A stretch of 64,000 nucleotides of DNA, taken from NCBI GenBank assembly GCA_019187485.1, contig JABAQR010000002.1:1-64000 (forward strand), written 5' to 3'. The stretch comes from Lysobacterales bacterium (GTDB lineage Bacteria > Pseudomonadota > Gammaproteobacteria > Xanthomonadales > SZUA-5). How positions within the stretch are numbered: position 1 is the first letter of the stretch; each line of letters starts with the position of its first letter. The notes under the pieces are model-generated. The model did not search any database. It saw nothing but the letters and a program-made list of their open reading frames with translations, and was not told where the DNA came from. The position numbers were made by a program, and so were the translations under genes. Below, piece after piece: positions 10,408 through 37,739 of this stretch.

Positions 10408-10555
10408 GCGGGGCCGGGGACTGGGGGCTGGGGCTTGTGCGCCGAAGAGCGAGGAGGGCCAGTGGGCTCAAGGTGAGCGCTGCAAGCGCATGCGAGGATT
10501 TCCAGTCTTCGAGTCCTCCCGCGCACCCGCCCCAGCCCCCAGTCCCCAGCCCCGC
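10408..10555. repeat. Palindromic element with GGGGCTGGGG-type arms (copy 1)
   Basis: Left arm 10408-10433 and right arm 10530-10555 are inverted copies of 26 bp with one mismatch. The arms consist of repeated GGGGxCTG units. The 96-base interior is ordinary sequence. It fills the gap between spuC and puuA. The same arm recurs at 14442, 41014 and 43855. Confidence 0.8.
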
Positions 10556-10568
10556 CATTGCTCCCCGT

Positions 10569-11956: not shown

Positions 11957-12709
11957 TCAGCTCCTCGCGTCTGCGTGTGCACGCACCGCCTGCGCGAAGT
12001 GTTCGAAGGTGCGGCGGTAGAAATCGTTCTCGAGCACTTTCCACTCCGGATGCCACTGCACGGCGAGCAGGAAGCTCTCGCCGCTGGCCAGGCGCACGGC
12101 TTCGATGAGTCCATCGGGTGCGGTGGCTTCCACGGCGAGCCCGTTGCCGAGGCTGCGGATACCCTGGCCGTGCAGCGAGTTGACCATCGCGGTGTCGCCA
12201 GCGAAGGAGTGCAGCAGGCCGCCGGGTGCGAGCGTCACCGCGTGCGCCGGCGCGTACTGCACATCGAGCGGCTGGCTCTGGTCCTCGCGGTGGTCGTGGT
12301 GGCCGACCGTTGCGTGCACCTTCTGCAGCAGCGTGCCGCCGAAGGCGACATTGACCTCCTGCAGCCCACGGCAGACCGCCAGCACCGGCACCCGCGCGCG
12401 TACCGCCTGGAGTACCAGCGGCAGGGTGTTGGCGTCGCGGTGCGCATCGTGCGGATTGCCTTCCCAGCTCGGCTCGTTGCCGTAGTGGTGCGGTTCGATG
12501 TTGCTGTACGAGCCGGTCAGGAAGATCCCGTCGAGGCGTTCGAGCAAGGTTGGCAGATCCAGCGGCGGGTCCAGCGAAGGGATCGACAGTGGTGTCCCGC
12601 AGCCGGTGTCGACGAGCGCGCGGAGGTACTTCTCGCCGACCGCCTGGAAAGGATGCGGGCCGATGATCTTGCGATCACAGGGCACACCGATGAGCGGCTG
12701 CTTGGCCAT
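11957..12709 (-). CDS. puuD: Gamma-glutamyl-gamma-aminobutyrate hydrolase PuuD-type
   Basis: 250 residues, class I glutamine amidotransferase fold of the peptidase C26 group. PLIGVPCDR opens the protein, the nucleophile is in VLAVCRGLQEVNVAFGG, and the His/Glu of the triad are in VQWHPEW. HGNEPSW-like residues near position 95 match the PuuD family. It cleaves gamma-glutamyl-GABA to glutamate and GABA, the last step of the Puu route. It is first in the minus-strand run and its promoter must lie in the divergent gap at 12710-13060. The ATG at 12709 is the only start giving the conserved N-terminus. Confidence 0.86.
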   Translation of the reverse strand: MAKQPLIGVPCDRKIIGPHPFQAVGEKYLRALVDTGCGTPLSIPSLDPPLDLPTLLERLDGIFLTGSYSNIEPHHYGNEPSWEGNPHDAHRDANTLPLVLQAVRARVPVLAVCRGLQEVNVAFGGTLLQKVHATVGHHDHREDQSQPLDVQYAPAHAVTLAPGGLLHSFAGDTAMVNSLHGQGIRSLGNGLAVEATAPDGLIEAVRLASGESFLLAVQWHPEWKVLENDFYRRTFEHFAQAVRAHADARS

Positions 12710-12793
12710 GCACAGGCTCCCGAAGATGCCGGCAAGGTACGCGGAGTGATCGATTTTTTCAACGGGTGTGCTTCGATTGGGACGCCTGTTGGT

Positions 12794-12954
12794 GGACGCA
12801 AAGGACGCAAAGGACGCAAAGGGCGCAAAGGACGCAAAAACAGCGACGGTCGGACTTGGGTTCCAGGAGACGCCAAGCGAAGGCCTGCTGGGCTCAGTGG
12901 AGAACTGCTTCTGCTTCCTTTGCGTCCTTTGCGTCCTTTGCGTCCTTTGCGTCC
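12794..12954. repeat. Nonamer-armed inverted repeat (GGACGCAAA)5 ... (TTTGCGTCC)4
   Basis: Five tandem copies of GGACGCAAA (12794-12838, the fourth reading GGGCGCAAA) face four copies of the reverse complement TTTGCGTCC (12919-12954) across an 80-base spacer. It occupies the divergent promoter region of puuD and puuA2. A second, degenerate copy lies at 37496-37607. The spacer has no convincing ORF. The rest of the 351-base gap holds no gene. Confidence 0.9.
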
Positions 12955-13060
12955 GAATCCGGCGCCCGTTCAAGGCGAGGTCTTCGGCAACCGATGAGTA
13001 TTTTTTACGCGCTCCGCCGCTCTGCTAGCATCGCCGGCACCTCCTGACGGCGATGCCACC

Positions 13061-14428
13061 ATGTCGGATTACGCCCTGCCAGCCGCGGATGCGGCGGTGC
13101 TGCAGCAGATTCCGGGCTGTGAGCTGATCGACCTGATCCTGCCGGATCTCAACGGCCTGCTGCGCGGCAAGCGGGTGACGCGCGATGCGCTGGCGAAGGT
13201 CTACGAGTCGGGCGTGTGCCTGCCGATGTCGCTGCTCGCGACCGACATCACCGGCAACACCGTCGAGGAAACCGGGCTCGGCTACGACATCGGCGACGAG
13301 GACCGCATCTGCCGGCCGGTGCCGGGCACGCTGCGGCCGGTGCCGTGGCAGAAAAAGCCGATGGCGCAACTGCTGCTGTGCATGGAGGACGCGCAGGGCG
13401 GGCAGTTCGTTGCCAATCCGCGTGAGGCGCTGCGGCGCGTGCTCGCGCGCTTCGATGCGCTCGGGCTGACACCGGTGGTGGCGGTGGAACTCGAGTTCTA
13501 CCTGCTGGATGCGAAGCAGACCGAGGACGGCCGCCCGCAGACCTCGATCAACCCGGCGACGGGGCAACGCAACCGCACGACGCAGGTCTATTCCCTCGAA
13601 GACCTCAACGACTACCAGACCTTCACGGACGCGGTCGCCGACGCCTGTCGTGCGCAGGCCATCCCGGCCGACACCGCCGTCGCCGAGTACGCGCCAGGCC
13701 AGTTCGAGATCAATTTGAAGCACCGCGCCGACGCGCTTGCCGCCTGCGACGACGCGATCTGCCTGAAGCGCGCGATCAAGGCCGTCGCCGAACGCCAGGG
13801 CATGCTCGCGAGCTTCATGGCCAAGCCCTTCGTCGACCAGGCCGGCAGCGGCACCCACATCCACGTCAGCCTGCTCGACCGCAACGGGAACAACCTCTTC
13901 GCCGGCACGCCGGACGCGCCGGCGCCGGCGATGCTCGCGGCCATCGGCGGCCTGCAGCGCAGCTCGCGCGACTGCATGCTGATGTTCGCGCCGCACGCCA
14001 ACAGCTACCGGCGCTTCGTGCTGAACGCCTTCGTGCCGCTCAACGACTGCTGGGGCTACAACAACCGCACCGTGGCGATGCGCATCCCGCACAGCGATCC
14101 GGCCAACACCCGCATCGAGCACCGCATCGCCGGCGCCGACGCCAACCCGTACCTGGTCACCGCCGCGGTGCTCGCCGGCATGCTGCACGGTCTGCAGAAC
14201 GGCTTCGATCCCGGCCCGCCGATCGTCGGCAACGCCTACGAGCAGACCGAATCGCGCACCCTGTTCTGGCGCGACACCATCGCCGACTTCATGGCGAGCG
14301 GGTTCATCGGCGACACCTTCGGCCCCGACTTCCGCCACATCTACGGCCAGCAGAAGCTCAAGGAGCTGCGCAGCTTCTACCGCGAGGTGACGACGCTGGA
14401 GTACGCGTGGTACCTGCGGCAGGTGTGA
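13061..14428 (+). CDS. puuA: Gamma-glutamylputrescine synthetase, glutamine synthetase-like (copy 2)
   Basis: 455 residues with the same fold and motifs as the enzyme at 10569: LIDLILPDLNGLLRGKRV, VAVELEFYLLD, APGQFEINLKH, GSGTHIHVSLLD, NRTVAMRIP and EHRIAGADANPYLVTAA. It resembles E. coli PuuA more than the first copy does, with the LLATDITGNTVEETGLGYDI segment. It leads a plus-strand pair with puuB, the next enzyme of the pathway, which strongly supports a gamma-glutamylpolyamine role. The ATG at 13061 begins the conserved region. Confidence 0.88.
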   Translation: MSDYALPAADAAVLQQIPGCELIDLILPDLNGLLRGKRVTRDALAKVYESGVCLPMSLLATDITGNTVEETGLGYDIGDEDRICRPVPGTLRPVPWQKKPMAQLLLCMEDAQGGQFVANPREALRRVLARFDALGLTPVVAVELEFYLLDAKQTEDGRPQTSINPATGQRNRTTQVYSLEDLNDYQTFTDAVADACRAQAIPADTAVAEYAPGQFEINLKHRADALAACDDAICLKRAIKAVAERQGMLASFMAKPFVDQAGSGTHIHVSLLDRNGNNLFAGTPDAPAPAMLAAIGGLQRSSRDCMLMFAPHANSYRRFVLNAFVPLNDCWGYNNRTVAMRIPHSDPANTRIEHRIAGADANPYLVTAAVLAGMLHGLQNGFDPGPPIVGNAYEQTESRTLFWRDTIADFMASGFIGDTFGPDFRHIYGQQKLKELRSFYREVTTLEYAWYLRQV

Positions 14429-14441
14429 AGGTGGAGCAAGG

Positions 14442-14599
14442 GCGGGGCTGGGGCGAGTGCGCGGCAGTGCGCGGCAAGCTACAACCTGTCGGTCGCGCTT
14501 GAGGACGCAAGCGAGCATCTCGTCCGGCACCTCGAGCTCGATGCACACTCGCCCTCAGCCCTCAGCCCTCAGCCCTCAGCCCTCAGCCCCCAGCCCCGC
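14442..14599. repeat. GGGGCTGGGG-type palindromic element with CCCTCAG heptad array (copy 2)
   Basis: GCGGGGCTGGGG at 14442-14453 is inverted at 14588-14599. Just inside the right arm are five exact tandem CCCTCAG heptamers (14552-14586) and a variant sixth. It fills the gap between puuA2 and puuB. Copy number of the heptad could vary by slippage. Confidence 0.8.
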
Positions 14600-14621
14600 A
14601 TTTCGCCTCGATCAACGGCGC

Positions 14622-24468: not shown

Positions 24469-27583
<3,115 letters not shown>

Positions 27584-27584
<1 letters not shown>

Positions 27585-27742
27585 TGTCCTGTCCCGCAAG
27601 TAGCGTGAAGAAGTTCCGGATGGATTTCGTCGCGAGACAAGGCGGGAGGAGGAGCCATAGTGGTTCTATGGCGACGACGAGCAACGCAGTATCGCGGCGA
27701 AAGACGCCGGAACTATTCGACGGTATTTGCGGGACAGGACAC
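27584..27742. mobile_element. 159-bp MITE-like element, IS630/Tc1-type ends
   Basis: Perfect terminal inverted repeats of 16 bp (GTGTCCTGTCCCGCAA and its complement) bound the element, each preceded or followed by TA within CTAG, as expected from TA target duplication at a CTAG site. An inner GTTCCGG/CCGGAAC pair extends the symmetry. The interior is too short for a transposase. It begins inside the TAG stop of the histidine kinase. The remaining bases to 27902 show nothing recognisable. Confidence 0.72.
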
Positions 27743-27902
27743 TAGCCCGGATGCTCCATGAAGTCGCGCGGAAATATTCCGGTTTCGTTGCGGCGACCCG
27801 GAGGCGGCGGAACAGAGTCCGGACAGTCTGTGCAGGAGTTCCGAACCGGGTGTCCGCGGTCCACGGGTCGACGATTGCGACCGGAGGCGGATCCGGGAGC
27901 GA

Positions 27903-37298: not shown

Positions 37299-37495
37299 TT
37301 GGAACCTCCGATCTGGAGCGGGATACGCAGCGCGTCGCGGGAGCCGCGACGGTTGCGCCATGAAGGGGCGGGCGGATTCTAAGGGCATGCTCGCGCCGAC
37401 GTCACGCCCGCAGCGGCACGATGCAATCCTCATTCAGGAAAGCCGTTCGTCGGGTACGGCGCGAGTTGGCGAGGAAGTCGAAAGGCTCTTTCGTG

Positions 37496-37607
37496 TCCGC
37501 AAAGGACGCGAAGGGAAGCAGGGGCAAGCAAGCGCATGGGGCCGACGGTGACCGTTCGCCTGGTTCGTTCTCTGGCTCTTCTTGGCGTCCTTTGCGTCCT
37601 TTGCGGA
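37496..37607. repeat. Degenerate GGACGCAAA-armed inverted repeat (copy 2)
   Basis: Two degenerate units of the nonamer at 37496-37515 face GGCGTCC TTTGCGTCC TTTGCGGA at 37584-37607 across about 68 bases. It is shorter and more worn than the copy at 12794 but has the same unit, orientation and spacing, and it too sits between divergent genes (fkpA and pspA). The rest of this 504-base gap holds the pspA promoter region and no gene. Confidence 0.72.
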
Positions 37608-37739
37608 TCCAAGGCTCTTCCCGCGTTGTCGAATGCCCTGCGGCGAATTCCACCCATCCCTGGCGCAGTTCGCCATCCGGGCTGTGCCGGAGGCTGGCGC
37701 CAGTGACACCGACTGTATCAGAATCAATCACTTGTCGAG

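Follow-up and report, generated by a model that had tools for sequence, protein, structure and literature searches.

Tandem-unit inverted repeats of a Lysobacterales genome as probable gene-less copies of a hairpin element encoding a predicted GxxExxY nuclease

The REP/BIME systems with a RAYT (TnpA-REP) consist of high-copy, gene-less intergenic palindromes and a single enzyme gene framed by the same repeats, and the element family described here is built likewise. The enzyme of the REP/BIME-RAYT systems is an HUH tyrosine transposase, whereas the one found here is a predicted PD-(D/E)XK nuclease, and the arms, unlike those of REP/BIME, are arrays of 9-10 bp units that extend up to ~45 bp. 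MITEs are likewise short, gene-less and dispersed, with inverted ends, and the loops of the present copies fit an origin by internal deletion; the differences from MITEs are that no known transposase was found here and that the arms are internally repetitive, with a variable number of units.

The 23S rRNA IVSs (S23p/four-helix-bundle, TIGR02436, PF05635) also hold a single small ORF inside stem-forming inverted arms. The IVS of Coxiella, with 28-bp inverted ends and tandem heptamers, was called selfish (PMC4990558) and is the nearest described unit of the TIGR02436 type; the intergenic TIGR02436 units reported below have the same architecture. Published IVSs lie within 23S rRNA genes, whereas the units found here are located in gaps between protein genes and are accompanied by many gene-less copies. 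In addition, the IVS gene is unrelated to GxxExxY, and the long copy of the arm type present in the window encodes PF13366, not S23p.

The nearest earlier notice that was found concerns paired sites of Geobacter metallireducens, reported in 2009, in which sets of three tandem units, on opposite strands, are paired across a gap of variable length (PMC2700814). One class of these sites, with the consensus TCTCCGTS[Y], was proposed to represent IHF/HU-type regulator sites (PMC2700814). This consensus is the reverse complement of the GxxExxY-type unit SACGGAGA; the same paper reads the sites as regulator sites, and no link to GxxExxY or to mobility was found there. In the literature searched, with subscription papers outside the search, no link of GxxExxY to repeats was found, GxxExxY, PF13366 and related names being mentioned only in passing, and the arm sequences were not printed in any paper found. 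To our knowledge, the GxxExxY nuclease family has no assigned function, and there is no agreement on what explains the intergenic repeats of this kind that are found across many phyla.

The window, a stretch of 64,000 nucleotides from a Lysobacterales bacterium, contains one such element at 12794-12954 (Table 1). Five tandem GGACGCAAA units (12794-12838) face four inverted TTTGCGTCC units (12919-12954) across 80 bases, with a partial right-arm unit at 12912-12918. This structure, claimed in a sequence-only reading, is real: the units were located, and the RNA fold of the element is a hairpin of -107.3 kcal/mol (z = -10.0), with 0 of 200 shuffles equally good. The loop is short and without a gene, and its AACAGCG start provides an AGC-containing inner boundary, as seen just inside the arms in most other copies. 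The listed PuuD-like ORF (11957-12973) extends through the element, and no Rfam family matched in the window at gathering thresholds. A second, worn copy, also claimed beforehand, was present at about 37493-37610, with TGTCCGCAAAGGACGCGAAGG facing CTTGGCGTCCTTTGCGTCCTTTGCGGATCC between divergent FKBP-type and pspA-like genes (names from translations). Both window copies lie in divergent gaps (puuD-like/puuA-like and FKBP-type/pspA-like), are intergenic with protein genes on either side, neither being in a 23S rRNA gene, and have CRCDRAK-like units of 8-10 bp in tandem, in two inverted arrays that read inward.

Table 1. Coordinates of the two element copies and of the genes flanking the first, in positions of the window.
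Feature	Coordinates	Strand	Description
Left arm	12790..12838	+	TGGT, then five tandem 9-bp units GGACGCAAA, the fourth being GGGCGCAAA
Loop of window element	12839..12911	.	Starts AACAGCG
Right arm	12912..12954	-	Four tandem TTTGCGTCC and a partial unit; left arm inverted
Flanking gene, PuuD-like class I glutamine amidotransferase	11957..12749	-	Name from translation; outside the element
Flanking gene, glutamine synthetase-like (PuuA)	13061..14428	+	Name from translation; outside the element
Second copy, left arm	37493..37515	+	GTCC-type, GTGTCCGCAAAGGACGCGAAGGG
Second copy, right arm	37581..37610	-	CTTGGCGTCCTTTGCGTCCTTTGCGGATCC

Repeats of other kinds were also observed in the window. An intergenic inverted pair without a gene at 10410-10556 has repeated GGGGCT-like units (GCGGGGCCGGGGACTGGGGGCTGGGGC facing GCCCCAGCCCCCAGTCCCCAGCCCCGC) and shows a likeness to four-helix-bundle-type arms. 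At 14440-14600, (GCCCTCA) x 6.6 at 14551-14596 has a weak inverted partner, GGCGGGGCTGGGGCGAGTGC, upstream, and these repeats may be another gene-less arm pair. The ~165-bp element at 27582-27746, with long inverted ends (CTAGTGTCCTGTCCCGCAA ... TTTGCGGGACAGGACACTAG), is classical MITE-like and of another type.

The genome to which the window belongs (G000; 3.83 Mb in 81 contigs, 99.5% complete) carries a dispersed family of these elements. The 17-mer GACGCAAAGGACGCAAA, with up to 2 mismatches, gave 92 + 84 = 176 matches, against 2 + 0 for the reversed pattern, and the window structure is therefore not due to chance. The sequence-only reading had preferred a dispersed element to local slippage, which these counts bear out, and dozens of copies dispose of its own caveat that the genome might contain only two. 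Most matches pair as an arm, a loop of ~20-150 bases and an inverted arm; the arms have about 2-7 units in 9- or 10-bp steps, and their subtypes have TGGACGC or GTCCGC as outer unit and inner variants such as GGGGCGC. The census of copies was partial, with about 47 sites inspected, among which only one was a long copy, and this carried PF13366. For the 40 copies with callable neighbours, 29 were in tandem, 6 in divergent and 5 in convergent gaps, genes being called by a simple GC-position rule that makes the figures approximate. The supposed preference for sites between divergent genes failed in this census, and the promoter-regulatory role suggested along with it consequently has no special support. 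No target-site duplication was found, given palindromic ends and empty sites in relatives that have diverged beyond base-by-base alignment, and no strain-level insertion polymorphism was found.

The long copy (G000:C5:7114-7608) is located in the carA/carB gap (names from translations) and has a loop of about 400 bp, inside which sits the only PF13366/TIGR04256 (GxxExxY) gene of the genome (E 1e-38), at only some 10-20 bases from either arm. Its arms consist of the same units as the gene-less copies. Either AGC or GGC was found within 17 bases inside the last unit in 39 of 44 copies, an inner boundary that most short copies have in common with the gene-bearing ones, where it is GTAGAAGCG beside the gene in G000 and GTAGAGC in G005; the shared boundary is suggestive, and only that, of short copies being internal deletions. 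The own arms of G000 copies had a mean similarity of 52, compared with 48 for arms of other copies, a weakly informative difference. The window copies are very probably gene-less members of this GxxExxY-armed family.

The AlphaFold model of the GxxExxY protein (pLDDT 92) was most similar to SSO0001, which we take to be a Cas4-family nuclease (Z 10.0, 102 residues, rmsd 3.0), followed by restriction enzymes, lambda-type exonucleases and Hjc, with Z 6-8, values that may reflect a common arrangement alone. The GxxExxY, D and ExK residues were invariant in 40 sequences. Judging from the PF13366 match (E 4e-39) and the modelled PD-(D/E)XK fold with conserved D and ExK, the protein is a predicted nuclease that has fold and active-site residues in common with the Cas4, lambda-exonuclease and Hjc nucleases; its sequence kinship to these is distant, the PDB sequence search giving no confident match and none better than E 0.24. 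The PADLOC defence search returned nothing beyond a weak Cas4b match (E 0.017). A GxxExxY match was absent from phage records, and distant relatives were present in 8 plasmid records, two of which were inspected and were uninformative on insertion.

Among nine genomes of the family, gene and repeats were found together in G000, G002 and G005, neither in five, and repeats without the gene in G001 (77% complete). The carA/carB gap of G005 and that of a Rhodanobacteraceae genome (L041) also contain GxxExxY, with other arm subtypes. In G005 every short copy sampled has GTCC-type arms, as does the gene copy, which suggests that gene-bearing and gene-less copies undergo the same arm changes from one genus to the next. 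At L041:5956-6430 the likely GxxExxY start codon lies inside an arm of GCAAATGAAC units, so that this arm may double as the source of the translation start. The puuD/puuA gap lacks the element in G001 and G007, shows no arm units by eye in G008, and has a different, GGGCACGGG-like inverted repeat in G002.

The layout of a gene within arms recurs across phyla. A scan of genome contigs yielded 80 GxxExxY loci from many phyla and the Methanosarcinales. When the left flank was compared with the reverse-complemented right flank, a score of at least 30 was obtained for 69% of 72 loci, against 5% of mispaired flanks and 1% of displaced windows of the same contigs, and about 30% of the surveyed loci were without clear arms. 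The arm units across phyla, of 8-10 bp, read about CRCDRAK plus 2-3 bases (e.g., ACGCAGATGA, ACACGGATTA, CGCAGAGGA and CGCAAAGGA). At GxxExxY loci 448 such units pointed inward and 90 outward, and 64 of 111 loci had two or more inward units on each side, against 3 of 111 with two or more outward units. Where a genome has two or three divergent GxxExxY genes, as several do, each gene has arms that differ from those of the others. Arm similarity tracks protein similarity (Mantel r 0.38, against at most 0.10 in 2000 permutations), and gene and arms therefore travel as a unit. The occurrence of this build in archaea and in many bacterial phyla suggests a widespread, unrecognised kind of mobile element.

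The presence of the gene is also correlated with that of the repeats. At least 10 generic three-unit arrays were found in 34 of 65 gene-positive and 6 of 333 gene-negative genomes (398 genomes of the phylum; p 4e-25), the association being present within the best-sampled family (p 3.5e-6) and outside it (p 1.9e-3), with p-values that overstate the significance, the genomes not being phylogenetically independent. One or more such arrays occurred in 123 of the 398 genomes, low counts including chance matches, and to this extent the impression of recurrence in other genomes, drawn originally from translated repeats, stands at the DNA level. A similar count covered 50 genomes of other groups that have GxxExxY: of the 13 with CGCAGAT two or more times in their own gene arms, 9 contained four or more dispersed copies of CGCAGATRAACGCAGAT (CGCAGAT repeats), versus 5 of the 37 others (p 3.5e-4). 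Four near-complete genomes (G013, G026, G045 and G116) have many arms and no PF13366 gene even at E 0.1, which counts against the simple model. In G045 (L273-L276), with 22 CACAGAG-type arrays, either the gene has been lost or another factor spreads the arms.

A second gene family has the same build. The carA/carB gap of G002 (L196, G002:C7:49288-49777) contains a (GGGACCC)-type inverted element around a 23S_rRNA_IVP/TIGR02436 four-helix-bundle gene, and the same gap hosts unrelated small genes in similar arms in different genomes, namely GxxExxY in G000, G005 and L041 and the four-helix-bundle gene in G002. Inverted tandem arms were detected at 67% of 27 TIGR02436 loci and at 0 of 54 controls, with units such as TAGGCAG, GTGAGTA and GAGGGAT, and GxxExxY-type arms at 0 of the 27. 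Five TIGR02436 genes are present in G000 (L241-L245), four of them between inverted tandem arms whose units differ (AGCAACTAG, GTGAGTAGT, AGTTTTCAG and GGGGCAGG type), the fifth having AAAAGGG/CCCTTTT-like flanks. The arm unit can thus be predicted from the enclosed gene. This speaks for an encoded protein that recognises the arms or, at the minimum, for gene and arms being strictly inherited together; at the same time, a build common to two unrelated genes leaves room for an arm-making process independent of the gene.

On balance, we favour a reading of the window copies as gene-less versions of a hairpin element that encodes a nuclease, and as mobilised by this nuclease, mobilisation being deduced from the association of gene and arms. 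The full-length element is a pair of arms closely framing one small GxxExxY gene. The nuclease would recognise its own arms by their repeated units, in duplex form or as an extruded hairpin, and would cut or trim DNA there, after which host repair or replication would place the palindromic unit at further intergenic sites by copying or conversion. Copies that have no gene but retain the arms would travel in trans, much as transposases carry MITEs or REPs. Transcribed arms would fold into long hairpins, and this may render an insertion between the genes of an operon tolerable. The main difficulty for a nuclease-mobilised element is the single gene beside dozens of gene-less units, a feature not seen in ordinary transposons: GxxExxY genes are few and divergent in each genome, and the gene-bearing copy does not multiply.

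That last observation also fits tandem-unit palindromes spread by host processes alone, namely template switching and hairpin repair at replication forks, the small genes being enclosed and persisting as cargo. The same explanation would account for arms in genomes that have no gene and for a build common to two unrelated small gene families, where the arms could be made independently of the enclosed gene. Against it stand arm units that are specific to the gene family and follow nuclease similarity, and the finding that the gene is a predictor of repeats both within the best-sampled family and elsewhere; we consider it rather unlikely. The nuclease could instead be a resident regulator, defence or chromosome-maintenance protein, with the arms as putative binding sites, autoregulatory around its own gene. 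The sites are indeed paired and intergenic, and similar ones of Geobacter metallireducens were taken as global regulator sites (PMC2700814), but promoters and divergent gaps are not preferred, many sites being in tandem gaps, the defence search gave just the Cas4b match, and the element is missing at the same site in relatives, which makes this role unlikely in our view.

The broad behaviour of the family (intergenic, palindromic, non-autonomous and of high copy number) is also that of REP/BIME-like palindromes mobilised by a REP-associated tyrosine transposase. The arms are tandem arrays, and the search of G000 for Y1_Tnp (PF01797; RAYT) gave 0 matches at E <= 0.001, which contradicts a RAYT/REP origin in G000, barring a RAYT gene hidden in an assembly gap; such an origin is extremely improbable. 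As for a known transposase family, which the sequence-only reading had set against its own proposal, Y1_Tnp is absent at that threshold and the gene enclosed by the arms encodes a predicted PD-(D/E)XK nuclease. Ordinary transcription terminators or attenuators between genes would explain the very stable hairpin, but not why near-identical units recur at scores of sites that are unrelated and often in tandem gaps. A T-tract search of the element was negative and the terminator reading, a highly improbable one, was dropped. Because the tested defining features of REP/RAYT and IVS are lacking and the enzyme does not belong to a known transposase class, the elements are placed in a family outside both, as a provisionally new class whose apparent behaviour resembles that of REP/RAYT and MITE systems.

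In the widest form of the proposal, for which we see about an even chance, GxxExxY, as a lone PD-(D/E)XK nuclease recognising arrays of ~9-10 bp units, is the mobility enzyme of a new and very widespread class of transposable units and spreads its own gene as well as many gene-less palindromes, with a parallel four-helix-bundle (S23p/IVP) class having its own arm units, and the two together would explain many of the so far unexplained tandem-unit intergenic repeats of bacteria and archaea. Tying GxxExxY to intergenic repeats gives each of them a testable role. If the proposal is true, a mobile system with a single nuclease and no known transposase would join the few known ways by which prokaryotic DNA spreads, and many palindromes now regarded as 'regulatory' would have to be reinterpreted as mobile DNA.
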